Made by a program: the position numbers and the translations under genes. Of a stretch of 27,155 bases of DNA, positions 1 through 25,973 are shown piece after piece. The DNA is taken from IMG/VR virus record IMGVR_UViG_3300037189_019103, positions 1-27,155 of that record. One strand, 5' to 3'. Source of the stretch: a virus. The notes beneath the pieces were generated by a model. The model was not told where the DNA came from. It ran no database searches and saw only the letters and a list, made by a program, of their open reading frames with translations. How positions within the stretch are numbered: the first letter of the stretch is position 1; every line of letters starts with the position of its first letter.

Positions 1-119
1 ATTGGATAGACCATAATAGAAAAGTTGTAAACTTACAAGCAAATAGTATTAAAAGTAATTCTGATGAAATTATAGGAACTAATGAAAGTGACTTATCTTT
101 TCATGTTATTGATTTTTAA
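1..119 (+). CDS. C-terminal fragment of an unidentified protein (5' end outside window)
   Basis: An open frame enters from the left edge. Its first complete codon is at 3, and it ends with TAA at 117-119. It encodes 38 residues beginning WIDHNRKVVNL and ending LSFHVIDF. The composition is ordinary (polar, with alternating hydrophobics) and reads like the end of a real protein rather than noise. Its stop overlaps by 4 nt the 3' end of the minus-strand ADP-ribosyltransferase-like gene, a compact convergent junction that also occurs near 2877-2897. I do not recognise the family from this fragment. A virion protein is plausible from the context only. Confidence 0.6.
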   Translation, partial: WIDHNRKVVNLQANSIKSNSDEIIGTNESDLSFHVIDF

Positions 120-745
120 ACATCAAGTGATTTAAAACTATGAATATTGTTTTCATAAAATATTGCAACGTTTTTACTACCACTTTCAATTATAAAAAAA
201 CCATCGTAATTACGTTTTTTTATTTCATTAATTATTGGTTCACATTCAATAATTCTCCAAGCGCCATTTTTTATTCTCCATAAATAAAAATAAACACTTT
301 GTGATTTATCTTTAATGTCAAATTCCGTATCTGAATCGTAATCATATCCCTTAAATCCAGTACCAATAACCTCTTTAATTTTTGTTCCATTAACTGAATC
401 GACATAATTAGTATCTATCATATTTTGTAAAATATCTTTAAGATTAAATTCCTTCATTATTTCAGGTTTTGATGGGTCACATAATTTAATACCATCTTTT
501 AAAATAACCTCAAATACTTTACCTTCAGGAAATTCATCCATATCAGCAAACTGTTTTGCAAAATTAATATTTGACGTTAAAAATATAGCGCCAGCAAATC
601 TTCTTAATTTTGGTGGAAAATCACCTTTTCTATTACCATGGTAAAGAATCTCAACATTTGATGACCCATTAGAATCATTTTCAAGGGTTAATTCTTTTAA
701 CCCCATGAGTTTTTTCATTTTATATGTTTGTTCTTGTAAGTTCAT
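116..745 (-). CDS. ADP-ribosyltransferase-like protein (ART-PolyVal-like fold)
   Basis: A 209-residue protein. What is seen: a YHG motif (residues 35-37) after a short hydrophobic strand, FLTS (55-58) followed by an alternating NFAKQFA helix, a strand KVFEVIL (76-82), and a C-terminal YDGFFI (180-185) then NVAIFYENNI (192-201). This order (YHG, hydrophobic-x-T/S, YDG, final 'vvFdpxqI' strand) matches the ADP-ribosyltransferase families found in phage polyvalent proteins. The residue usually Glu or Asp before the last strand appears to be Asn192, so activity is uncertain. The first 14 residues (MNLQEQTYKMKKLM) form a basic amphipathic segment that could be a packaging tag; T4 Alt is a known capsid-packaged ADP-ribosyltransferase. 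It starts 6 nt after the neck-like gene and is probably cotranscribed with it. Family assignment is by motif reading only. Confidence 0.5.
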   Translation of the reverse strand: MNLQEQTYKMKKLMGLKELTLENDSNGSSNVEILYHGNRKGDFPPKLRRFAGAIFLTSNINFAKQFADMDEFPEGKVFEVILKDGIKLCDPSKPEIMKEFNLKDILQNMIDTNYVDSVNGTKIKEVIGTGFKGYDYDSDTEFDIKDKSQSVYFYLWRIKNGAWRIIECEPIINEIKKRNYDGFFIIESGSKNVAIFYENNIHSFKSLDV

Positions 746-751
746 AATATT

Positions 752-1867
752 TTATATTACATTATACGGTGATTGCATTGGTCTAAACTTTAATGCTTTA
801 TTAAGATTTTCAGCTTCAGCACCTTTTCTCTCAAGAATTTTTTCTGGTCTAAGTCTTTCTAATCTTTGCATTAATTCCTCAACTAGTTTTAATTTTTCAT
901 CTTTAGCTTCAGTTTGTAAAGATTGGTAATCAAGTTTTATTGTACTATCAGGTACTTGTAAATCACCTGAAAATTTACTCCATATTCTAGCTAAACCTTC
1001 TTTTGAATATGCAATAAAATATTTTCTAACCCAATTTTTTGATGGTTTATTTAATAAATCCCAAGTTAACTCTTCTGTTTCAACATCAGATGGTAATTTA
1101 ATAATACCTTTATTTTTATCAATACAAGTATCTGTCACTGTTGTATCATAATACCAATACCAAACCTTTTGTCTATTATTACGAATAGAACCAAAATCAA
1201 ATCTACCTCCAGGAACATTATATAAATGTACAACTTTAGTACCGTTAGGTCCTGCGGTAACTCTATATGTTAGTTCTCCACCAATTAAACGATTTTTAAT
1301 ATTTCTATCTTGCATTCTTAATAATAAATCATATGCGGGTAACATGAAGTATGATCCAGATGAACCTTGTTGTGCAAATCCTCCAACTCCACCAAACGCA
1401 ACACCACCTAATCCACCGAAACCACCTAAAAACGGGTCTACAATCGAGTCAGTTAATTCAGCCCGACTAAACCACAATAATTCATTTATCTCTCTTCCTG
1501 CGGGAATTATGTAGGTTTGTGTGTTAGCACTTAACGAAATATAATCTTTTTTTAATTCTGCGTCACCACCTGATTGTAATCCAACTATTTTTGAATATGA
1601 GTGTGTATATTGTGTCTCATAATCTAAACTTCTGGTTGTGAAGGCTCTACTTAATGATTGGTTATCAACATTTAAACCAGCTAATGCTGACCATTGTGAT
1701 TCAATTAACCAATCACTAACATATTGTTCATATTCAGATATGGATAGTTCAATAAAAGTATCCATTTGTTCTTCGGTAAGTTCGACCCCTCTAACAGGCA
1801 TACCTAAAACATGTAATACTTGTGTAAATAATTTTTCCCTTTCTTGTTCTGAAATAATTGTTGTCAT
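752..1867 (-). CDS. Neck / head-completion protein, T4 gp13-like
   Basis: A 371-residue protein. The N-terminus has the pattern common to phage neck and head-tail connector proteins: VLGMPVRGVELTEEQ (about residues 20-34), then a helix with SEYEQYVSDW (44-53). The middle carries a strongly glycine-rich loop (144-171, GGFGGLGG and similar), and the C-terminus is a charged helix (about 320-355). T4 gp13 is 309 residues, so this one is longer, mostly through the loop and tail. The family role is joining the DNA-filled head to the tail, with gp14. It lies on the strand opposite the gp14-like and gp15-like genes, with two DNA-metabolism genes between them. The ATG at 1865-1867 has a TATTTATA box 15 nt upstream and no Shine-Dalgarno sequence. 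Assignment rests on motif pattern and neighbourhood. Confidence 0.55.
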   Translation of the reverse strand: MTTIISEQEREKLFTQVLHVLGMPVRGVELTEEQMDTFIELSISEYEQYVSDWLIESQWSALAGLNVDNQSLSRAFTTRSLDYETQYTHSYSKIVGLQSGGDAELKKDYISLSANTQTYIIPAGREINELLWFSRAELTDSIVDPFLGGFGGLGGVAFGGVGGFAQQGSSGSYFMLPAYDLLLRMQDRNIKNRLIGGELTYRVTAGPNGTKVVHLYNVPGGRFDFGSIRNNRQKVWYWYYDTTVTDTCIDKNKGIIKLPSDVETEELTWDLLNKPSKNWVRKYFIAYSKEGLARIWSKFSGDLQVPDSTIKLDYQSLQTEAKDEKLKLVEELMQRLERLRPEKILERKGAEAENLNKALKFRPMQSPYNVI

Positions 1868-1882
1868 AATTTTATATATTCT

Positions 1883-1890
1883 TATAAATA
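1883..1890 (-). promoter_or_regulatory. TATTTATA box upstream of the neck-like gene
   Basis: TATTTATA reads on the minus strand 15 nt before the ATG at 1867. Similar boxes sit upstream of seven plus-strand units (near 5769, 6318, 7643, 10856, 11468, 12375 and 25106). T4 late promoters carry TATAAATA, the exact reverse complement, so the motif is AT-rich and late-promoter-like but not identical in orientation. A late promoter or a translation-enhancing leader are both possible. Confidence 0.4.
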
Positions 1891-1893
1891 TCG

Positions 1894-1901
1894 TATATTT
1901 G
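1894..1901 (+). promoter_or_regulatory. TATATTTG (TAnnTTTG) -7 box, near-leaderless
   Basis: TATATTTG matches the Bacteroidota -7 consensus TAnnTTTG. Only three bases separate it from the ATG at 1905, so a start site at the usual distance would give a leaderless or nearly leaderless mRNA. No TTG element is visible at the expected spacing upstream. The same box precedes the SNF2 helicase gene. Confidence 0.45.
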
Positions 1902-1904
1902 AGT

Positions 1905-2897
1905 ATGAATTATCACGACGCTAAAAGATTTATGAATAATTACACTTTTAAGGTGAATAATAAAAACACCTGTAATGATGTAATGAAAAGAAAGGGATTG
2001 GAATATGACCAATGGATAAAACATTCTATAAATGAAAAATTTGGTCTTAAAGATAAAGACGGTCGTTGGTGTTGGAGAAATACAATAAACACCCATCCGT
2101 ATTGTTTTCTTGAATTATATAAAATTTCACAAGAATTAGGATATGATGAAATTGATTTTTTTGATGAATCTAACCAACTTGAGAATATTAAAAAGTTATG
2201 GAGTTGGTTAGAAAGTAATTGGGAGTTAATTTTTACAGATAATATCGAATCTAAATATTTCTACAGATTAATGTTTTTAACTAATAAATCTTGGTCAGTA
2301 GGTCAAATTACCACTATTGCATTTTTATACACTTTTAGAGAAATATTTGAAGATAAGGAATTTAAAAAAATTAATTTTTCATTAGAAAGAGGAGATTTAT
2401 TAGATTTTGTTGGTATTGATATTAAAATAATAACAAAGGAAAACGAAGAAATAACCATTCAAGTTAAGAACGGTAAATTTACTGAAAGAAATTCTAATTA
2501 CGAAATAAGTAGTTCAGTTAATGATTTAAAATCTATTGCAACTCATTATTGTTTCGTTAACATACAAGAAGATGAAACAAAAATCATAGTATTTAAAAAT
2601 GAAAAAAAACAAATATTAGAATATTTTAATTCCTATACTTTTGAAAAAGAATTATTAATAAATAAACCAATAACAAAAAATATGATTATACCACAAAAAC
2701 TACACGAAATGTTAATATTTTGTGCTGAAAATAAAATAGTATTTGATTTAAAAAATAAAGAAGGTGAAGAAAATAATATTTCTTGGTCACTAAGTCCTGA
2801 AAAAATAGTAACCGTAACAATTGGAGACTTTAAGGAAGAAAATTTGGGTAATTACATATCAACAAAATTAGATGAATTAAAAGAGGCTCTTAAGTAA
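1905..2897 (+). CDS. Putative PD-(D/E)XK-type nuclease (tentative)
   Basis: A 330-residue protein starting MNYHDAKRF. I chose the ATG at 1905 because the open frame continues upstream only by running antisense through the neck gene, and because a TATATTTG promoter box lies directly before it. The N-terminal half is helical and rich in Trp and aromatic residues. Residues 161-190 hold the key pattern: RGDLLDFVGIDI (162-173), a short turn, then ITIQVKNGKF (183-192). This strand-turn-strand with D164/D167 and Q186-x-K188 resembles a PD-(D/E)XK nuclease core in which Gln replaces the usual Glu. The remainder is alpha/beta with no motif I recognise. The gene converges on the SNF2 helicase with a 21-nt overlap of 3' ends, consistent with a recombination or repair module. 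It could instead be a non-nuclease protein of unknown function. Confidence 0.4.
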   Translation: MNYHDAKRFMNNYTFKVNNKNTCNDVMKRKGLEYDQWIKHSINEKFGLKDKDGRWCWRNTINTHPYCFLELYKISQELGYDEIDFFDESNQLENIKKLWSWLESNWELIFTDNIESKYFYRLMFLTNKSWSVGQITTIAFLYTFREIFEDKEFKKINFSLERGDLLDFVGIDIKIITKENEEITIQVKNGKFTERNSNYEISSSVNDLKSIATHYCFVNIQEDETKIIVFKNEKKQILEYFNSYTFEKELLINKPITKNMIIPQKLHEMLIFCAENKIVFDLKNKEGEENNISWSLSPEKIVTVTIGDFKEENLGNYISTKLDELKEALK

Positions 2898-5729
2898 TGT
2901 ATTAGCAAAACTTTCACCATATTCACCATCACCCATAACTTGATCAATAATGTTTTTCTTTTTTTGTAAAATATTATAAACAATCATTTCAATAGTATTT
3001 TCAAAAACAGGATAATAAACTAATACACTATTTTTTTGACCGTATCTGTAAGCCCTATCTTCTGCTTGTGAATGGTCTGAAGGTACAAATGATAAGTCGT
3101 TCATTATAACCACCTCAGCTGCTGTTAATGTAATTCCAACACCACCAGCTTTAATATTTGATATGAATATTTTTGTTTTGTCATCATTTTGAAATTTATC
3201 CACACTTTGTTGTCTTTTTTCTTTTGACATTCTACCATCAAGAATTACCGAATTTTTTTTATACTTTTCATGTAACATATCTAAACTTGATGTGAAATTC
3301 GTAAATACAATAACTTTTTTTCCTTGTTCAATAACTTTATCAATTAACTCGCAAGTATATGGTACTTTTTCAAATGCAATGACTTGTCTTAATTTCATTA
3401 AACGATTTATTGTAACCGTTAAAGATTCTTTATTCCTATTATCTTTTGAAATTCGTATAAAATCTTCTAATTCATCACTATAAAACGTACTAGTTAAATC
3501 TAAAAATATTGGACTAACCATCTTTTCAGGTAAATCAAGAATATCTGTTTTCATTCTTCTTAGAACAATATTTTTAGTTCTTTCTCTAAGTTCATCTAAA
3601 TTAGATGAACCATTCGTATTCCATATTTTTTTACCCCCAACTTTAAATTGATATCCCGCACAATATCTTTTCACATAACCTTGCCAATTTAACGCAATTG
3701 GTGAATCAACTATTTTTAATAAATTATAATAGTTGATAGGTCTTGATGTCATTGGTGTTCCTGTTAATAACCAAACTTTGGGGATATTCTTAACCAAATC
3801 ATTAATCAATTTAGTTCTTTGTGCCGTCGGATTTGAAATATAATGTGCCTCGTCAATAATAACTAAATCAAATTTTTCATTTTCAATTAACTTATATGAT
3901 TCAATATTTTCCGTCTTTTCCATACTATGATAATTTTTTAAAATATCATAATTAATAATATAAAAATCAAAAGTTGGTTCCCAATTTTTACCTTCTACAA
4001 TTAATATATTTTTATCGGAATAATTTTTTATTTCTCTATACCAATTTATTTTTAATGATGATGGACAAATAATTAAAACTTTCTTTGATTCACTCTCTAA
4101 TGAGGCTATAATAGCAGATGTGGTATTATGTGTAACAATACAATGTTCTGCAACATATAACTTATCAGGTGCGTCAACGGATATACATACCGTATTTTCC
4201 TTACCAATTTTTTCTATATTTTTAATATATCTACCTGTTGGATATTTTTGAGGTTCATTATATCTTTCTGACTTTCGTTTTAAACGAAACGGATTCATTC
4301 CTGATGGTAATTTTATATTTACACGATAAGATATTGAACATTCCACACGTTTACCATCTTTTTTATAATAACTTCTTCTTGATTTTTTTCTTGCGATTCC
4401 ACCTAGTGTTTGAACGATTTCACACACATCATCGCATAATTTTTCAGAAATTGTTGAATATTCAGTTGAATGGAAAGTACCATTTTTAGAAAATGAACAA
4501 TGACCGTCTGTGTCCATCAAACCTTGTAATATTGCAAGTCGGTTCTCAATGGAGGAATATTTATATATCTCAGGTATAAATTTATTATAAGAACGAGATT
4601 CTAATAATCCAATTTTATCAATATTTTCACCTAAAAAAATTTTACCACCCTTTAAATTTGGTTTGGTTTTTAAAGGTATTAAATTATAATTACCAAATAA
4701 TTCATCATAATCATCTTGATGTACCACAAATACACATTTTTCTTTCTTAAAATGTCCATCACCAAGACACAGACCAAGTAAATATGGTTCTATCGGTAAT
4801 TCGTTATCATTATTAAATTCTATTGGTTTTACAATCGGAATCTGCCATTTGTTATTACCATTTGGAGATTTATAATAAGTTTCAATATTATAATTTTTTT
4901 CTGAATTATATCCGTCACCTTTTATCGTTATTGTTCCACCTTCAAACATTTGTTTTGTAGATAAAATTAACGATTTTTTTAATCTTTCATTTTTCCTATT
5001 TTTACCATAGTTAGGTGATGAAACCGACCATAAATGTGACCCATCAGTTACTATCTTATAACCGTCATTAAATGTGACTTCGTAAATATCTTGTTTTTTT
5101 TGAGGAAAAACACCAATTACTGTACATTGATTTCCATCAGAACCTATTATCTTATCACCAACAATTATATCCCCAATTTTTTTAGTTCCGTTTGGAGTAT
5201 ACACTAAAGTACTGATAATCAGACCTTTTCCCACGCCCATATCGTCAGCTAAAATAAATTTATTATTTGATAATAATTTTTCTATTGCTTCTTTTTGATG
5301 ATTCATGGGTGCTCTATGAGAGTAAGGTGAATAATCAATAACTCTATTTAATTTTTTCTCTTCTTGAATTATAGCAAATTTTGGTAACCATATTGCGTAA
5401 TTATTTTGATTTTCATTTAATTTACCCCATATATGATAAGCATTATCACTTTCACATAATAATTTTTCACACCAAATTTTTTCAGGTAATGAAGATAAGT
5501 TTTTATCTTTCATTAAAGTCTCAGCAAAATTCTTGGTAATTGTAATATGTTTTTTAGCTATTTTTGGTACAACATTATAATATTTTATAACATATTCAGA
5601 TTGTGTTCTTGTTAAATTATATTTTACATTAGTAACCATTTTTAGTTTCCAATCTAATATTTGATTGTTAAATCCTTCATATTTTAACAATAATTCTCTT
5701 GCTTCTTTTTCAGGTATTATATTCTCCAT
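2877..5729 (-). CDS. SNF2-family DNA helicase/translocase interrupted by an intein
   Basis: Precursor of 950 residues from the ATG at 5729 (a TTG at 5738 would add three residues, but it lies inside the promoter box). The spliced protein would be 583 residues. Visible helicase motifs: Walker A DDMGVGK followed after the intein by TTSAI, ICPSSLKINW (motif Ia region), IIDEAH (motif II), LLTGTPM (motif III), then the second RecA lobe with VFTNFTSSLDML, LDGRMSKEKRQ, NIKAGGVGITLT and QAEDRAYRYGQ (motif VI). This set is diagnostic of SNF2 enzymes, closest in feel to short SMARCAL1/HepA-like annealing helicases. In T4-type phages such enzymes remodel forks or recombination intermediates. The gene points away from the tail block, has its own host-like promoter, and overlaps the putative nuclease gene at the 3' end. 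Helicase identity is firm; the exact role is inferred. Confidence 0.9.
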   Translation of the reverse strand: MENIIPEKEARELLLKYEGFNNQILDWKLKMVTNVKYNLTRTQSEYVIKYYNVVPKIAKKHITITKNFAETLMKDKNLSSLPEKIWCEKLLCESDNAYHIWGKLNENQNNYAIWLPKFAIIQEEKKLNRVIDYSPYSHRAPMNHQKEAIEKLLSNNKFILADDMGVGKGLIISTLVYTPNGTKKIGDIIVGDKIIGSDGNQCTVIGVFPQKKQDIYEVTFNDGYKIVTDGSHLWSVSSPNYGKNRKNERLKKSLILSTKQMFEGGTITIKGDGYNSEKNYNIETYYKSPNGNNKWQIPIVKPIEFNNDNELPIEPYLLGLCLGDGHFKKEKCVFVVHQDDYDELFGNYNLIPLKTKPNLKGGKIFLGENIDKIGLLESRSYNKFIPEIYKYSSIENRLAILQGLMDTDGHCSFSKNGTFHSTEYSTISEKLCDDVCEIVQTLGGIARKKSRRSYYKKDGKRVECSISYRVNIKLPSGMNPFRLKRKSERYNEPQKYPTGRYIKNIEKIGKENTVCISVDAPDKLYVAEHCIVTHNTTSAIIASLESESKKVLIICPSSLKINWYREIKNYSDKNILIVEGKNWEPTFDFYIINYDILKNYHSMEKTENIESYKLIENEKFDLVIIDEAHYISNPTAQRTKLINDLVKNIPKVWLLTGTPMTSRPINYYNLLKIVDSPIALNWQGYVKRYCAGYQFKVGGKKIWNTNGSSNLDELRERTKNIVLRRMKTDILDLPEKMVSPIFLDLTSTFYSDELEDFIRISKDNRNKESLTVTINRLMKLRQVIAFEKVPYTCELIDKVIEQGKKVIVFTNFTSSLDMLHEKYKKNSVILDGRMSKEKRQQSVDKFQNDDKTKIFISNIKAGGVGITLTAAEVVIMNDLSFVPSDHSQAEDRAYRYGQKNSVLVYYPVFENTIEMIVYNILQKKKNIIDQVMGDGEYGESFANTLLKSLF
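4125..5225 (-). mobile_element. Class 3-type intein with LAGLIDADG homing endonuclease
   Basis: A 367-residue insertion between GVGK and TTSAI of the Walker A motif. Intein residue 1 is Gly, not Cys/Ser/Ala, followed by STLVYTPNG (block A). Block B has HLW with H64 and W66. Block F has C347 in VCISVDAPDKLYVAEH. The C-terminus is THN with His366 and Asn367, and the +1 extein residue is Thr. Trp in block B, Cys in block F and +1 Thr are the WCT signature of class 3 inteins, which lack an N-terminal nucleophile. The Deinococcus radiodurans Snf2 intein is a known class 3 example in a related host protein. Between the splicing blocks lie LLGLCLGDG (149-157) and LQGLMDTDG (233-241), the two LAGLIDADG motifs with acidic D156 and D240, so the homing endonuclease looks intact. 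Confidence 0.9.
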
Positions 5730-5735
5730 ACAACA

Positions 5736-5767
5736 CAAATATACTTAAAAATTTTTTAATAACAAAA
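5736..5767 (-). promoter_or_regulatory. Bacteroidota-type promoter for the SNF2 helicase
   Basis: On the minus strand TTTTG (5767-5763) is followed by 19 nt and then TATATTTG (5743-5736). This fits the -33 TTTG / -7 TAnnTTTG arrangement of Bacteroidota housekeeping promoters. The ATG at 5729 is six bases past the box, so the transcript would be leaderless or nearly so. Confidence 0.6.
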
Positions 5768-5768
5768 C

Positions 5769-5777
5769 TATTTATTA
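5769..5777 (+). promoter_or_regulatory. TATTTATTA box before the gp14-like gene
   Basis: TATTTATTA ends three bases before the ATG at 5781. It belongs to the recurring TATTTAT(A/T) set upstream of structural genes. The very short distance is awkward for a promoter, because the start site would fall at or after the ATG, so here the motif may act as an A/T-rich translation leader or the gene may be read from another promoter. Confidence 0.3.
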
Positions 5778-5780
5778 AAT

Positions 5781-6293
5781 ATGAAACAAAAAATACCCAT
5801 AACAAGAATAAGTAAATTCTTTTCTGAAGATGATTTTAATTTAAACCAACAAATAGGTCAAGAGTATCTTCATGGAGATATTAATATGAAATTAGTTCTT
5901 TTTAGAATTAACACACAAAAGACTGATATTGATAATGTTTATGGTGAAGTTGGTAAAGACCAAATAAAGTTTTTTCCACCTGTTGAATTTAATGGTTTAG
6001 TTAAAATTGAAGAACCTAAAAATACTGCATATAAAACAGGATTAAATAGATATTTGGAACCAGGGAACATGACTGTATCGGTATATATTTCACATTTGGA
6101 AGAATTGAAAGTAGATATAAAATATGGTGATTTTATTGGTTATCCTGAATCAGAAGATAGGGTAAGATATTATACTGTTGTAAATGATGGAAAAGTCACA
6201 TCGGATAATAAACATAATATGTTTGGTTTTAAACCATATTATAGAACAATAGTTTGTGCTCCTGCACAAGAATCAGAATTTAGAGGTATATAA
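5781..6293 (+). CDS. Neck / head-tail completion protein, possibly T4 gp14-like
   Basis: A 170-residue soluble beta-rich protein. A short N-terminal segment (MKQKIPITRISKFF) is followed by helix and strands. VYGEVGKDQIKFFPPVEF (about 60-77) and the stretch MTVSVYISHLEELKVDIKYGDFIGYP (about 97-122) recall the gp14 layout, in which a 'GD-hydrophobic-x-Y/F-P' turn is followed by a strand describing the bound interface. T4 gp14 is 256 residues, so this would be a minimal version. It opens the plus-strand tail block directly before the gp15-like and sheath genes, the position expected for neck or tail-terminator proteins. It ends with tandem TAA codons. Assignment is weak by sequence and relies mostly on synteny; another small connector or tail-terminator protein is equally possible. 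Confidence 0.45.
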   Translation: MKQKIPITRISKFFSEDDFNLNQQIGQEYLHGDINMKLVLFRINTQKTDIDNVYGEVGKDQIKFFPPVEFNGLVKIEEPKNTAYKTGLNRYLEPGNMTVSVYISHLEELKVDIKYGDFIGYPESEDRVRYYTVVNDGKVTSDNKHNMFGFKPYYRTIVCAPAQESEFRGI

Positions 6294-6317
6294 TAAAATT
6301 AACCACATAAGTTAGAT

Positions 6318-6326
6318 TATTTATAA
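6318..6326 (+). promoter_or_regulatory. TATTTATAA box before the gp15-like gene
   Basis: TATTTATAA lies 11 nt before the ATG at 6338, in a 44-nt A/T-rich gap. It is one of eight similar boxes upstream of structural transcription units. Confidence 0.35.
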
Positions 6327-6337
6327 TAAATTAAAAA

Positions 6338-7591
6338 ATGGGAATACCTAAAAGAAAAAATGATATACAAGTTTATAATAGTAATAGTGGTATAAACGAA
6401 ACTAATGTAAAAGGAAGAAGAAAAGAATTATTAGAAAGAATAACAAAATCAGATACTTTCTTACCCGATTCAATTTTACATGAAGATCTTGATTTAGGTA
6501 TGTTAAATTTTATTACTGAAAATTTTAAAATTGTTTCTGATGGTGAGGAAATACCAATAATACCTAAAATTTTAACAGTTCAAAGATGGGGAGAAATTTC
6601 GAATAATTGGTCATTCTCTGATGAAAGTGGTAATATAAAATTACCATTTATTGCGGTAATTAGAAAACCTGATGTTCAATTTGGTACTAACCCATCTATT
6701 CATAGAACTATACCAGATAGAAGACAATTTTTTTATGCATCAGTTCCAACATGGAATGGAACACAAATGGGTGCTGATGTGTATAAAATACCACAACCAA
6801 TCGCTGTTGACATATCATTTGAAGTAAGTGTTATTTGTAATAAACTAAGAGATATAAATCTTTTTAATAAAAAAATATTACAAAAATTTTCATCTAGACA
6901 ATCATATACAACAGTAAAAGGTCATTATATACCCATAGTATTAGAAAGAATAGAAGATTCTAGTCCAATGGATTCTTTAGATAATAGAAGATTCTATATT
7001 CAAAATTATTCTTTTTTAATGTTAGGTTTCTTAATTGATGATGAAGAATTTGAAGTTAAACCAGCAATTAGTAGATTGTTCTTATTAAATGAATTTATTC
7101 AAAGTAATAATTTTATAAAAAAATATATTACAAAAACTATTGAAGTAACTATCGTGTCTTTTCCAGCTGATGGAGTACAAAAAATTTTTAGTGTTGGTGA
7201 AACTATAAATGTTTTATTTACTGTGACAATTAATGGTCTTGTTCAAATTAGAGATGACGATTATTTTCATGTTTCTAAAACATCAAAAATAAGTTTTATT
7301 GAATCACCTGTAGAAGGTTCAGTAATAACAATAACATATTATAAGGGAAGAAATGAAACATTTAATGATAATTTCGGTAAACCTTTAAATGTATTATACC
7401 AAACTTTTATATATGATGGATCCACATTAGAATTCACAACTATAGATTTGATAGATAGTGTGATTAGTTTAGATATAAATGGTCTTGTTGAAGATGAAGG
7501 TGTAGGTTTTGAAGTTTCAGGTAATAATAAAATTAAAATTTTAGGTACACCTATTTTAGGTTCAAAAATAAGTGTTGTTTTTTTAAATTAA
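6338..7591 (+). CDS. Tail completion / sheath terminator protein, T4 gp15-like, with C-terminal repeat modules
   Basis: A 417-residue protein. Residues about 70-250 resemble the gp15 tail-completion family: a strand block with ILTVQRWGEISNNW and FIAVIRKPDVQFGTNPS, then PQPIAVDISFEVSVICNKLRD (the 'P-x-P-hydrophobic, strand, helix' pattern), FSSRQSYTTVKGHYIPIVLE, and RRFYIQNYSFLMLGFLID. T4 gp15 is 272 residues and caps the tail tube and sheath before head joining. The extra length is C-terminal: two tandem beta modules, about 262-346 and 347-417, each containing INGLV, a short acidic turn, a 'VSxxxKI' strand and a 'P-x-x-GS-x-I' strand. They look like small beta-sandwich decorations. It lies immediately upstream of the sheath gene, as expected. 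The gp15 call is good but not certain; the repeats are read directly. Confidence 0.55.
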   Translation: MGIPKRKNDIQVYNSNSGINETNVKGRRKELLERITKSDTFLPDSILHEDLDLGMLNFITENFKIVSDGEEIPIIPKILTVQRWGEISNNWSFSDESGNIKLPFIAVIRKPDVQFGTNPSIHRTIPDRRQFFYASVPTWNGTQMGADVYKIPQPIAVDISFEVSVICNKLRDINLFNKKILQKFSSRQSYTTVKGHYIPIVLERIEDSSPMDSLDNRRFYIQNYSFLMLGFLIDDEEFEVKPAISRLFLLNEFIQSNNFIKKYITKTIEVTIVSFPADGVQKIFSVGETINVLFTVTINGLVQIRDDDYFHVSKTSKISFIESPVEGSVITITYYKGRNETFNDNFGKPLNVLYQTFIYDGSTLEFTTIDLIDSVISLDINGLVEDEGVGFEVSGNNKIKILGTPILGSKISVVFLN

Positions 7592-7642
7592 ATTTTAAAT
7601 GACAATTTAAAATTATATAAAAATCTTTGATAAAAATAAAGA

Positions 7643-7650
7643 TATTTATA
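7643..7650 (+). promoter_or_regulatory. TATTTATA box before the tail sheath gene
   Basis: TATTTATA lies 37 nt before the sheath ATG, within the 96-nt non-coding gap 7592-7687. The distance would allow a transcript leader of about 30 nt, the most comfortable promoter-to-start spacing of the set. Confidence 0.4.
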
Positions 7651-7687
7651 TTATAAGAAATAAAATAAATAAACCAAAATTTTAAAT

Positions 7688-10531
7688 ATGTCAAATTCAA
7701 ATAGAGTTTTCGTATCTCCAGGTGTTTATACATCAGAAAAAGATTTAACATTTGTTGCTCAAAGTGTTGGTGTCACAACTCTCGGATTAGTTGGTGAAAC
7801 ATTAAAAGGTCCAGCTTTTGAACCCATACTTATTAGTGATTATAACGAATTTAAACAATACTTCGGTGGTTCAACACCTGTGAAAGATGGTAATGGTAAT
7901 CCAAAATATGAATTACCTTATGTAGCAAAATCGTATCTTGAGGAATCAAATCAACTTTTTGTAACAAAAATATTAGGATTAACAGGATATAAACCTGTTA
8001 AAACTTACTCAATTAAAACAATTGGTGGCGTAGAATTGGGTTCATTAAGTGGTTCAACTACCGGAACATGTGATCCATCAACAAGTGCTGAAATAACTGG
8101 AAGTACGTTTTATCAAAACTTATCTGGAATAACAACATATGATGGTGAAACTTTTTTGAATTATATGGATAGTACGTTTAGTAATAATACTAATAGTAAT
8201 AATGGTCAATGGTTTGTTATTGGTTTAGTGCCTGAGGATGAAATAACGGGGTTGGTTAGTAGTGACGAAGAAATATCGCCATTAACTGGTCTTATAAATT
8301 CAACAAATCCAAATAATAAAGAATGGTATAATCAATTATGTAATAGTAATGGTACTGAAGTTTATTCTTATTTATTTGTTTACAATTCAGGAACTACTGC
8401 ATTTGATGTTACTCAATTTACATACAATTCAACAGTATTGACTGATTATAATAATCAAGTAGTACTTTCTTTTAGATCAAGAGGTTCCTATTCAGGACAA
8501 ACATTATTACTTGAAACAACAGGTAATACTCAATTTAATATTAGTGGAAATGATATTTTGAAAAATCCTTTATCTGAATTTACTATCAACGTAACTGGTT
8601 CAACAAGTGGTTCTAAAGTATTTACATGTTCTATGGATACAACATCACCAAAATATGTAACAAAAGTTTTAGGTACTGATGTTTTTGATAAACCAAAAGA
8701 TGAGATTCCGATTTATGTACATGAAGCATATCCTAATTATTTATCATCAGCATATAAACAAGGTTTTATTAGAGGTCTAAGTTTAGATGAAGTATATGTT
8801 TCAGAAGGAAATAATTACGCAACTCAATGGGACACCCCATTATCACCAATGGTAGTATCAGAAGTTAGAGGTGGTAAAGTTTCAGATTTATTTCAAGTAA
8901 TAACTATTTCTGATGGAAATAGTGCAAATGCAGAAATTAAAATTTCAATTATAAATATTAATATTGAAACAGGTGAATTTGATCTATTAGTTAGAGATTT
9001 TAATGATACTGATGAAAATCAAGTTGTAATTGAAAAATTCACACGTTGTTCAATGAATCCTGATTTACCTGGATATATTGCAAGAAAAGTTGGTACATCT
9101 GATACTGAATATGAATTACGTTCAAAATATATCATGTTAAACATGGCGTCAAATCATCCAGTAGATGCATTTCCAGCAGGATTTAAAGGTTTTGTAAATA
9201 ATTCTTCATTTTCAGGATCGACATTAGGTTCTATCATGTATAAGACCGAATTTTATGATGCTGGAGATATTGTTGGGTATAATGCAGATGGATCTGATAT
9301 TCAATCATCAGGTGATAAAATTAAAAAAATAAGTTTTGGTCTTTCTTCACAAATAGGATTTGATAAAGATTTATTTAAGTTCAAAGGTACGTCAGCAATT
9401 ACAACAACAAATGGTTTCCACTTATCAGTAAACGCGGCACCTATTACGGGAACAACTTTTATTACAACACCATATAATTTAGAAAGTCAAACAGGTGTTG
9501 ATAATGTTTTAACAAATATTAATTACCGTAAATTTACTTTTGCGGTATGTGGTGGTTATGATGGTTGGGATATATACAGACAAGTTAGAACATATAGTGA
9601 TCAATATATCTTTGGAAAACAAACATATGTTAGTGGTAACACATCAAATGGTGGTTTATTCAGTACATCTGTTGGTAATTCTGATTACTATTCTTATTTA
9701 CAAGGTATAAATACATTTTCAAATCCTGAATCAGTTAATATTAATATTTTTGCAACTCCTGGTATTAATTTTTATGACCATAGTTCATTAACATCACAAG
9801 CAATTGATATTATTGAAAATGATAGAGCGGATTCACTTTATATTATTGCACCACCAAATTATTCAACAGTTGAAGAAGTTGTAGATGCGTTAGATAGTGT
9901 TTCATTAGATACTAATTATTCTGCGACATATTGGCCATGGATACAAGTAAGAGATGTTGATAACGCAACTCAATTATTTATACCACCAACTGGTGAAGTT
10001 GTAAGAAATATAGCATTAACTGATAATGTATCTTTTCCATGGTTTGCAGTTGCTGGATATTCAAGAGGATTAGTAAAATCTATAAAAGCTATAAAAAAAT
10101 TAACTCTTGATGAAAGAGATGAATTATATAAAAATAGAATAAACCCAATTGCTACTTTTTCTGATACTGGAACAATAATTTGGGGAAATAAAACTCTTCA
10201 AGTAAGAGAATCTGCTTTAGATAGAATAAATGTTAGAAGATTATTATTAAGAGCAAGAAAACTTATTTCTGCAGTTGCAGTTAGATTACTTTTTGAACAA
10301 AATGATGAACAAGTAAGAAATGAATTTTTAAGATTGGTAAATCCAATATTAGAAGCAATAAAAAGAGAAAGAGGTTTATATGAATTCCGTGTAACGGTAT
10401 CAAATGAACCAGAAGATATTGATGCAAATACTCTTAGAGGTAAAATTTATATAAAACCTACAAGATCATTAGAATTTATTGATGTTGAATTTATTATAAC
10501 ACCAACAGGAGCATCATTTGACAATATATAA
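7688..10531 (+). CDS. Tail sheath protein (T4 gp18-like)
   Basis: A 947-residue protein. The N-terminus has the sheath hallmark VSPGVYTSEKD (9-19), followed by GVTTLGLVGETLKGPAFEP (28-46) and a 'YFGG' strand (about 58-61). The C-terminal third is the conserved sheath core: LYIIAPPNY, WPWIQVRDV, PFAVAGYSRG-like PWFAVAGYSRG, LQVRESALDRINVRRLL, and GLYEFRVTVSNEPEDID near the end. T4 gp18 is 659 residues; the extra length is a Ser/Thr/Gly/Asn-rich region at about 100-330, probably surface domains on the outside of the sheath. Sheath subunits polymerise around the tube and contract to drive infection. The gene is followed by a strong hairpin terminator and a non-coding array before the tube gene, so the unit may be transcribed separately. 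Confidence 0.95.
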   Translation: MSNSNRVFVSPGVYTSEKDLTFVAQSVGVTTLGLVGETLKGPAFEPILISDYNEFKQYFGGSTPVKDGNGNPKYELPYVAKSYLEESNQLFVTKILGLTGYKPVKTYSIKTIGGVELGSLSGSTTGTCDPSTSAEITGSTFYQNLSGITTYDGETFLNYMDSTFSNNTNSNNGQWFVIGLVPEDEITGLVSSDEEISPLTGLINSTNPNNKEWYNQLCNSNGTEVYSYLFVYNSGTTAFDVTQFTYNSTVLTDYNNQVVLSFRSRGSYSGQTLLLETTGNTQFNISGNDILKNPLSEFTINVTGSTSGSKVFTCSMDTTSPKYVTKVLGTDVFDKPKDEIPIYVHEAYPNYLSSAYKQGFIRGLSLDEVYVSEGNNYATQWDTPLSPMVVSEVRGGKVSDLFQVITISDGNSANAEIKISIININIETGEFDLLVRDFNDTDENQVVIEKFTRCSMNPDLPGYIARKVGTSDTEYELRSKYIMLNMASNHPVDAFPAGFKGFVNNSSFSGSTLGSIMYKTEFYDAGDIVGYNADGSDIQSSGDKIKKISFGLSSQIGFDKDLFKFKGTSAITTTNGFHLSVNAAPITGTTFITTPYNLESQTGVDNVLTNINYRKFTFAVCGGYDGWDIYRQVRTYSDQYIFGKQTYVSGNTSNGGLFSTSVGNSDYYSYLQGINTFSNPESVNINIFATPGINFYDHSSLTSQAIDIIENDRADSLYIIAPPNYSTVEEVVDALDSVSLDTNYSATYWPWIQVRDVDNATQLFIPPTGEVVRNIALTDNVSFPWFAVAGYSRGLVKSIKAIKKLTLDERDELYKNRINPIATFSDTGTIIWGNKTLQVRESALDRINVRRLLLRARKLISAVAVRLLFEQNDEQVRNEFLRLVNPILEAIKRERGLYEFRVTVSNEPEDIDANTLRGKIYIKPTRSLEFIDVEFIITPTGASFDNI

Positions 10532-10553
10532 GACTAAATGTTTTTTTTATCAT

Positions 10554-10591
10554 AAATCCCCATTTATTTAACAATATTTGGGGATTTTTTT
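10554..10591 (+). terminator. Rho-independent terminator after the sheath gene
   Basis: A 9-bp stem AAATCCCCA / TGGGGATTT (10554-10562 with 10579-10587) encloses a 16-nt loop and runs into a T-tract (10585-10591). It lies 22 nt after the sheath stop codon. Confidence 0.85.
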
Positions 10592-10593
10592 AT

Positions 10594-10603
10594 ATACTAG
10601 TAT
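10594..10603. repeat. ATACTAGTAT palindrome, first copy
   Basis: A perfect 10-bp palindrome just after the sheath terminator. An identical palindrome is at 10647-10656, where it forms the left edge of the CTAG array. The interval between them is almost entirely A and T. Confidence 0.6.
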
Positions 10604-10649
10604 CTATCATAAAAAATAAATTAATATTAAAAAGTATTTTTTTTTTATA

Positions 10650-10794
10650 CTAGTATCTAGTATCTAGTATCTAGTATCTAGTATCTAGTATCTCTAGTAT
10701 CTAGGATCTCTAGTATATAGGATCTCTAGTATCTAGGATCTCTAGTATCTAGGATCTCTAGTATCTAGGATCTCTAGTATCTAGGATCTCTAGT
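10650..10794. repeat. CTAG-rich tandem array: six 7-bp units then six 16-bp units
   Basis: The 351-base stretch 10532-10882 between the sheath and tube genes has no ORF. It holds the terminator at its left end, this array in the middle, and a TATTTATTA box at its right end. The array is built as CTAGTAT x6 (10650-10691), a CT spacer, then CTAGTATCTAGGATCT x6 (10694-10789; copy 2 has TATATAGG in place of TATCTAGG), ending with a partial CTAGT (10790-10794). The 16-mer is a 7-mer plus a CTAGGAT variant plus CT, so one unit evolved from the other. A perfect palindrome ATACTAGTAT (10647-10656) begins it. Short units with no unique spacers exclude CRISPR. Function unknown: candidates are an origin-like iteron set, a protein-binding array, or a slippage-made minisatellite. 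Confidence 0.95.
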
Positions 10795-10855
10795 GCAAAA
10801 ATATAAAATATTAATTTAAATTTCAAGTTTTTTTTTATTTTTTTATAAAATCATA

Positions 10856-10864
10856 TATTTATTA
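10856..10864 (+). promoter_or_regulatory. TATTTATTA box before the tail tube gene
   Basis: TATTTATTA lies 18 nt before the tube ATG, followed by AAG and an A-rich leader. Because a terminator and the CTAG array separate the tube from the sheath, the tube needs its own promoter, and this box is the best candidate. Confidence 0.45.
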
Positions 10865-10882: not shown

Positions 10883-11371
10883 ATGGCAGACTTACTAATG
10901 AAAATGCCGGTTCCATATGAGCCGAAAAGACAAAATAGATTTATTCTTCGTTTCCCATCTAGTTTGGGTATAAATGAATGGTATGTATCATCTGCGGCTA
11001 GACCTAGTGCAAAAATTAATTCAGTTGAAATTCCTTTTTTAAATACTTCAACTTATGTTGCCGGAAGATTTACTTGGAATGAAATTAGAGTTACTTTTAG
11101 AGATCCAATTGGTCCATCAGCATCACAAGCATTAATGGAATGGTTTCGTTTACATGCTGAATCAGTAACAGGTCGTATGGGATATGCGGCTGGATATAAA
11201 CAACAAGTTGAATTAGAAATGTTAGATCCAACTGGTGTTGTTGTTGAAAAGTGGATTTTAGAAGGTTGTTTTATAACTGATTTAAATTTCAACGACCTTG
11301 ATTATTCTAGAGATGAAATAGCAACTATTACGTGTTCATTAAGAATGGATAGATGTATTCAAGTGTTTTAA
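10883..11371 (+). CDS. Tail tube protein (T4 gp19-like)
   Basis: A 162-residue protein, almost exactly the length of T4 gp19 (163). Family features are clear: an N-terminal PVPYEPKRQNRFILRFP segment (9-25), VSSAARPSAKINSVEIPFLN (35-54), the hairpin FTWNEIRVTFRDPIGPSASQ (63-82) with the invariant 'W-x-x-I-x-V-x-F-x-D' strand, LMEWFRLHAE, and a C-terminal strand DEIATITCSLRMDRC. Six copies per ring stack to form the inner tube through which DNA passes, templated by the tape measure. It lies alone between a non-coding array and a hairpin terminator, which may give high, independent expression. Confidence 0.95.
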   Translation: MADLLMKMPVPYEPKRQNRFILRFPSSLGINEWYVSSAARPSAKINSVEIPFLNTSTYVAGRFTWNEIRVTFRDPIGPSASQALMEWFRLHAESVTGRMGYAAGYKQQVELEMLDPTGVVVEKWILEGCFITDLNFNDLDYSRDEIATITCSLRMDRCIQVF

Positions 11372-25331: not shown

Positions 25332-25973
25332 ATGAAACTAGAAAAAAAATTATTAGAAGAAGTTGCAAGGTTCAATCAAATTAATAAGTATGCTAAAAAA
25401 CTTATGAATGAACAAGAATTACCTTTACCTGGTGCTGAAGAAACACCACCGGCTGACGCTCCACCAATGGGAGGAGAAATACCGCCATCTGACGTACCTC
25501 CAATGGGAGGTGAAACACCACCTGCAGATGTTGCACCATTACCCGATTCAAATACAGAAGAAATAGATATTACCGATTTAGTAAATATAACTAAATCCAT
25601 TAAAAAAGATGTTGAAGACAGTAAAACTGAACATTCAGGTGTTTTAGGTAAAATGGACGATGTATTTAGTAAACTTGATGAATTAGAATCTAAATTAGCA
25701 AATATGGATAATATCATATCTAAAATTGATGAATTAGGTTCAAAGATTCAACAAATAAAAGAACCGACACCACAAGAGAAACTTGAAATGCGTTCTTTAG
25801 ATTCATATCCATTTAATCAAAACCCACAACAATTCTTCTCACAAAAACAAGGAGAAATGAGAACATCAGGAAAAAATGAATATGTTTTAACAAAAGATGA
25901 TATTCAAAATTATTCACAAGAAACGATAAGAGATACATTTAACATTCAAGATGAAGATGAATTTAAGTTCTAA
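25332..25973 (+). CDS. Proline-rich repeat and coiled-coil protein, possible prohead or virion protein
   Basis: A 213-residue acidic protein in four parts: a basic amphipathic N-terminus (MKLEKKLLEEVARFN, then YAKKLMNEQE); three imperfect PPAD/PPSD repeats with PPMGGE (about residues 38-70); a coiled-coil region with regular hydrophobic spacing (about 80-140: ITKSIKKDVEDSK, VFSKLDELESKLANMDNII, ISKIDELGSKIQQIK); and a polar tail ending NIQDEDEFKF. Such highly charged, low-complexity, coiled-coil proteins are typical of phage core or scaffold proteins, but no family is recognisable. Its N-terminal 'Y-x-x-K-K-L-M' resembles that of the ADP-ribosyltransferase-like protein. The repeats are also direct DNA repeats. 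Confidence 0.6.
   Translation: MKLEKKLLEEVARFNQINKYAKKLMNEQELPLPGAEETPPADAPPMGGEIPPSDVPPMGGETPPADVAPLPDSNTEEIDITDLVNITKSIKKDVEDSKTEHSGVLGKMDDVFSKLDELESKLANMDNIISKIDELGSKIQQIKEPTPQEKLEMRSLDSYPFNQNPQQFFSQKQGEMRTSGKNEYVLTKDDIQNYSQETIRDTFNIQDEDEFKF

Follow-up and report, generated by a model that had tools for sequence, protein, structure and literature searches.

To our knowledge, almost nothing has been established about where large uncultured phages begin to replicate or package their genomes. The iterons of plasmids are longer than the repeats considered here, at about 20 bp, and have a Rep gene next door; TrpR operators, and also MetJ boxes, are tandem palindromic sites centred on CTAG that are bound side by side at a spacing of ~8 bp. 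Bacteriophage T4 has several origins, of which oriE, oriF and oriG lie near switches of transcription direction, and oriE contains evenly spaced direct repeats that are conserved in relatives and whose function is unproven (PMC3016281). Direct repeats of the heptamer TAACTGA are scattered over as many as 169 sites per genome in Beggiatoaceae, cyanobacteria and Bacteroidetes (PMC4679880). Our literature search for CTAG arrays in phages found no paper.

The window analysed here, i.e. the whole stretch of 27,155 bases of an IMG/VR virus record that is itself a fragment, carries such an array between the genes for the tail sheath and the tail tube, which are in general the most abundant tail genes. 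This placement, given in the initial annotation of the sequence, is borne out by PHROGs matches on both sides (Table 1), and the array is as that annotation described it: six CTAGTAT units, the dinucleotide CT, six 16-bp CTAGTATCTAGGATCT units, the second of which is the variant CTAGTATATAGGATCT, and a closing CTAGTG, for a total of 18 CTAG tetramers within 144 bp (10650–10793), or 19 when the tetramer at 10597 is counted. TRF gives a period of 16, 9.3 copies, 94% matches and a score of 234, the strongest array in the window. Because the whole window holds 47 CTAG against 38 in dinucleotide shuffles, and its densest 150 bp hold 18, the excess can be assigned to the junction array alone. Also present as annotated are the two identical palindromes that flank an A/T spacer and the terminator on the left, a hairpin followed by a T run that a simple terminator scan of the window did not pick up but the fold z-score (−3.9) did; terminators stand 3' of the sheath gene in most relatives too. 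The tube promoter motif of the window corresponds to TATTTATA, which in three large relatives is a general promoter motif at −20 to −40 bp of start codons. Elsewhere in the window, a 36-bp tandem repeat lies within an ORF at 25439–25522.

Table 1. Features at and around the sheath–tube junction, in window coordinates
Feature	Position	Strand	Basis or remark
Tail sheath gene, 947 aa, left neighbour	7688..10531	+	PHROG 23 (phrog_23), E 4e-60
Intrinsic terminator of sheath, AAUCCCCAUUU...GGGGAUUUUUUU	10554..10592	+	Hairpin 10554-10587, -14.5 kcal/mol, z -3.87, T run
First ATACTAGTAT palindrome, left outlier CTAG site	10594..10603	.	Sequence
A/T spacer between the two ATACTAGTAT palindromes	10604..10646	.	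Sequence
Second ATACTAGTAT palindrome, overlapping array start	10647..10656	.	Sequence; identical to first
Six 7-bp CTAGTAT units	10650..10691	+	Sequence, TRF
Six 16-bp CTAGTATCTAGGATCT units (one variant), then CTAGTG	10694..10789	+	Sequence, TRF; copy number differs among relatives
Diverged counterpart of relatives' downstream block TACGAAAAAAATTGACAAARTCAAG; recognisable: ...TCAAG only	10795..10827	+	Junction comparison
Lineage switch: identity with G018 on the left, ~85% on the right	10808..10809	.	Contig comparison
Tube promoter motif ATATTTAT (relatives: TATTTATA)	10855..10862	+	Motif comparison
Tail tube gene, 162 aa, right neighbour	10883..11371	+	PHROG 4542 (phrog_4542), E 7e-29

A search of IMG/VR with the tube protein returned hundreds of relatives, uncultured T4-like large phages, of which the best 80 of the hundreds of matches were read first and more later. 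These are metagenomic contigs of phages that form one clade, so phage counts do not represent independent events. Most of the 116 unique sheath–tube junctions (79 representatives) contain an element in the same place, for the most part shorter than that of the window. The order in relatives is the sheath stop, a terminator, often a GTTCC-N4-GGAAC palindrome, CCCAGTA, several CTAG, CCAG or CTGG words, often TACTGGG, then TACGAAAAAAATTGACAAARTCAAG, A/T, TATTTATA and the tube gene. What is conserved among them is a symmetric word, C-Y-R-G (CTAG, CCAG/CTGG, CCGG), set in spacers that are mostly A/T and differ from group to group, and the clearest reading is that the tetramer itself is what has been kept. 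CYRG exceeds dinucleotide shuffles 5–10 times in the elements and holds most of the G/C of many of them, and the block TACGAAAAAAATTGACAAARTCAAG is conserved in all junction types. In L048, L275 and L354, a TACGAAA...TTGACAAARTCAAG block plus TATTTATA is seemingly doubled in tandem before the tube gene. The GTTCC(N4)GGAAC palindrome occurs in many relatives' junctions, for example in L033 at −316 from the tube gene, and one group of relatives has a similar palindrome just downstream of the tube gene (the TTAG group, see below). Outside this clade, a DNA search of named phages with the window gave no match, the closest named tube proteins are only ~41% identical, the junctions of the two best tube matches among them (Microcystis phage Mel-JY01 and the huge phage LR756508) are short and have no array, and a search of prokaryote genomes found no relatives.

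Within these genomes, the element has a single location. When the 310-, 288- and 251-kb genomes were scanned for their densest CTAG or YYAGWA cluster, large relatives had 9 CTAG per 150 bp at the junction against 2 in the next cluster, and the corresponding counts for YYAGWA (TTAG type) were 11 and 4; in the 310-kb genome the junction stands out by CTAG only (7 versus 3). A 168-kb contig of the window's subclade has its sole array at the contig end. The element pattern was found at no fewer than 119 loci (at least 119) in IMG/VR, and 119 of the 119 matches listed lie at the sheath–tube junction: 105 are flanked within 3 kb by sheath on the left and tube on the right, and the other 14 by one of these genes; among the matches listed, none lies away from the junction. 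The search for the same units in the rest of the genome, which the initial annotation had proposed, thus points to one locus in relatives of up to 310 kb, and we discarded a dispersed repeat or MITE, as copies occur at one locus only in the genomes scanned. Heptamer repeats of the form (CTAGTAT)n also occur in contigs that have no sheath or tube match (L149–L153).

Is the word merely common in these junctions, or is it selected? Across 37 independent nearest-neighbour junction pairs, in which CYRG tetramers were compared site by site, the outer C/G positions changed in 0.2% of cases versus 15.5% for C/G within 30 bp (Fisher 5e-24), and changes at the inner positions comprised 16 transitions and 0 transversions versus 99 and 176 nearby (2e-7), all of these inner changes preserving CYRG; the p-values are indicative, given some dependence between sites of one pair, and the effect is large. 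The substitutions point to strong purifying selection on the CYRG word, and fixed outer positions combined with transitions only at the inner ones are the trace expected of a protein that reads C-Y-R-G. The idea that the CTAG words form a binding array, one of several offered in the initial annotation, has therefore gained ground; they behave as a selected, predicted protein-binding array. In a sister group (L060, L063, L071, L072, L074, L235, L237, L238 and L267), the junctions have hardly any CYRG and instead 7–12 TTAG words, which with few exceptions point the same way; the TTAG repeat of L072 has an 8-bp period. CYRG-rich and TTAG-rich junctions do not overlap, and three representatives (L246, L253 and L352) have lost both words. 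The simplest reading of the switch from CYRG to TTAG is co-evolution of the array and its putative binder.

Genome-wide word counts were considered as well. CYRG is depleted across the genomes of most CYRG-type phages, strongly so in many (pooled ratios of 0.51 for CTAG, 0.61 for CCAG and 0.66 for CCGG), and TTAG-type phages show no such depletion, with ratios of 0.98, 1.15 and 0.89, respectively. Depletion is weak or absent in the window's subclade and occurs without CTAG in L052/L057. We dropped this avoidance as proof of a CYRG-acting protein, since it is phylogenetically confounded and the window's subclade is hardly depleted. Separately, GATC is wholly missing from G002 (L089–L103, 288 kb; 0 versus ~798 expected) and G009 (L194–L198; 0 versus 280), and CCGG from G005 (L170–L178; 0 versus 178), which probably reflects restriction avoidance.

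The element is also autonomous with respect to its neighbours. In L010, L011, L012, L056 and L086, endonuclease-like genes on the minus strand separate the element from the tube promoter (with a weak restriction-fold match, MTES_1575, in L056, DUF7487 in L011 and a similar gene in L086), and in L039, L053, L055 and L273 genes lie between the sheath terminator and the element (a YkuD L,D-transpeptidase in L053; L039 and L273 carry an unidentified open frame). The element is intact despite these insertions on either side, whereas damage would be expected if it were a short-range operator or a leader RNA, and its position between a terminator and a promoter suggests that it acts mainly as DNA. 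With regard to genome position, transcriptional divergence at the element scores within 3% of the maximum in four genomes of 176–310 kb, which places it in the top 1.4–4.5% of positions. It heads a long rightward block of late genes, and the last leftward gene ends 5.0–6.6 kb upstream; the exact divergence gap is thus ~5 kb upstream of the array and not at the array itself.

Copy number, in contrast to the word, is labile. Two consecutive CTAGTATCTAGGATCT units were found in 14 contigs, which have sheath on the left and tube on the right wherever a flank exists, inserted genes aside; several start or stop within the array, as would be expected if the repeat disrupts short-read assembly. Comparison among related phages, another step suggested at the outset, revealed that near-identical contigs carry 27, 29 and 33 CTAG (L141, L135 and L137/L145), differing by whole 16-bp units, a pattern from which the tandem expansion is read as length variation by slippage. 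The suggestion of a slippage product thus holds for the exact copy number. The window itself requires caution: positions 1–10808 equal G018 (locus L147) base for base, and then there are 82 differences in ~560 bp. Relative to the L135 group, G018 is 94% identical on the left and 93% on the right, and the window is 94% and 84% identical, respectively. By this comparison, the window is a mosaic with its joint ~15 bp past the array, produced by recombination or by repeat-driven misassembly, and because the lineage switch falls just past the array, the window's copy number is unreliable and its right flank calls for care; the element itself does not depend on the window contig. A recombination site, also put forward in the initial annotation, fares unevenly, in that the window does switch lineage at the array edge but no general hotspot is seen: distance correlations across the junction are no lower than within the sheath gene when two loci with an inserted gene, which distorted the result, are left out.

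Taken together, these comparisons make us confident that the clade-wide, single-locus element is an array for a sequence-specific DNA-binding protein, predicted from its sequence. As to its role, we tentatively propose an iteron-like replication origin, which we judge the most likely function. Five points place it ahead of tube-promoter control and packaging: the element is present once per genome, takes the form of an array, has A/T-rich surroundings, lies at the divergence and has a precedent in T4. Repeated short sites occur in a conserved place, and these sites are under selection as predicted protein-binding words. The protein would bind each symmetric C-Y-R-G tetramer, mostly CTAG; many copies would assemble on the array, much like an initiator on iterons, into a nucleoprotein complex beside the A/T-rich stretch; and this complex would start replication of the genome where the long rightward late block begins. 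In the window's subclade, an ancestral set of 3–12 sites would have been enlarged to 16–33 by duplication of the 7-bp unit and then of the 16-bp unit. An iteron-like origin had been among the initial suggestions, and the repeat array, the transcriptional divergence and the oriE precedent favour it; the GC-skew check proposed alongside does not, as GC3 skew around the element is inconsistent in sign (7 genomes) and cumulative skew minima are not at the element. Further points against it are the ~5 kb between the array and the exact divergence gap, the several origins of T4 together with the unproven function of the oriE repeats, and the relatives that have lost both words. More broadly, the element could quite possibly be a previously undescribed one-per-genome control site, be it for replication start, packaging start or segregation, of widespread uncultured phages of 250–310+ kb, distinguished by a degenerate symmetric CYRG word, a concerted switch to TTAG in a sister group and a range of 3 to 33 sites generated by slippage. 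A single recognizable element at a fixed place is a testable candidate origin or packaging site, and the word switch between sister groups would allow the binder to be found by co-variation.

Two other uses of a DNA-binding array deserve consideration. A regulator on the CYRG sites, together with the TTGAC-N3-GTCAA block, might tune the timing or level of tube expression or block read-through from the sheath gene. In most junctions, the element does precede the tube's TATTTATA promoter by ~60–150 bp, TACGAAAAAAATTGACAAARTCAAG is kept in all types and seems duplicated with TATTTATA in L048, L354 and L275, and an enhancer-like nick can activate T4 late transcription over a distance of kilobases (PMC2988020); however, the element is found at just one of many TATTTATA promoters, and in at least three lineages the array has not decayed even though insertions of ~1.6 kb set the element and the block apart from the promoter, and we consider this role rather unlikely. 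Less probable still is a pac-like packaging start recognized by the small terminase subunit. The coordinated switch from CYRG to TTAG would fit co-evolution with a recognition protein, there is one site per genome, in pac phages the terminase small subunit makes contact with special sites (PMC9611059), and the T4 small subunit, gp16, favours the 3' end of the gene that encodes it, gene 16 (PMC3012670). Yet TerL is 39–49 kb from the element, and T4-type phages are described as being without a unique pac site (PMC9611059).

The remaining explanations we hold to be very unlikely. If the self-complementary words formed hairpins in a sheath–tube transcript, one could account for the mean fold z of ~−3 over the elements tested and for the inverted ends CCCAGTA...TACTGGG, which show one double change from A-U to G-C, but any array of CYRG is expected to give a negative z because the word is self-complementary, and the covariation term (+0.18) lends no support, with 3 of 13 pairs showing one double change each. 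In a helix, the outer pairs would be free to drift as well, whereas the outer C/G are fixed and only inner positions vary; moreover, a terminator precedes the element, a promoter follows it, and an Rfam search gave no match near threshold. Slightly less probable again is a neutral slippage satellite without function, with which the whole 16-bp steps and the (CTAGTAT)n repeats of the unrelated contigs L149–L153 would agree; the same place in all relatives, CYRG kept while group spacers differ, and the selection test speak against it, and for the element as a whole this alternative named in the initial annotation is rejected, the element being single-locus, clade-wide and under strong purifying selection on CYRG. 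Least probable is a partition or host-factor site, at which the array and the neighbouring GTTCC(N4)GGAAC palindrome would recruit a host chromosome-organizing protein. The exact parS consensus TGTTCCACGTGGAACA does occur once in G001 (59216) and once in G002 (67744), at the sheath–tube junction, but the centre of the palindrome varies (ACGT, ACAT, ACGC, ACGA, ACAA, ACGG) with its arms kept, unlike parS, across relatives the CACGTG centre that is conserved in TGTTNCACGTGNAACA is not maintained, and the palindrome is absent from the window. A search for the ParB domain, PF02195, found none in G001–G003 (the control was positive in 10 of 14 genomes). Given the variable centre and the lack of a ParB gene in the three genomes, a parS/ParB identity was rejected.

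How, then, does the candidate origin compare with known systems? With the TAACTGA repeats, it shares intergenic, directly repeated heptamers of variable copy number (PMC4679880), but those repeats are dispersed and the phage array is confined to a single locus. As in TrpR and MetJ operator arrays, the sites are palindromic and centred on CTAG; unlike in those operators, there are far more of them, the word is the degenerate CYRG and the spacing is 6–24 bp. The pac sites of P22 and SPP1 resemble the element in that there is one site per genome, with multiple contacts in SPP1 (PMC9611059), and differ in that the array is not in or near the terminase genes, as judged from TerL at 39–49 kb. Iteron plasmid origins of the R6K gamma and RK2 type are likewise arrays of initiator sites beside A/T-rich DNA (PMC4980987), but no neighbouring Rep gene was found at the phage array. 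By analogy, the nearest precedent is T4 oriE: in both cases, a large myovirus carries a single cluster of short repeats whose place is syntenic among relatives and close to a change in the direction of transcription (PMC3016281), and whereas oriE is built from an evenly spaced 12-mer, the array described here is built from a degenerate symmetric tetramer, variable in spacing and number, between the sheath and tube genes.
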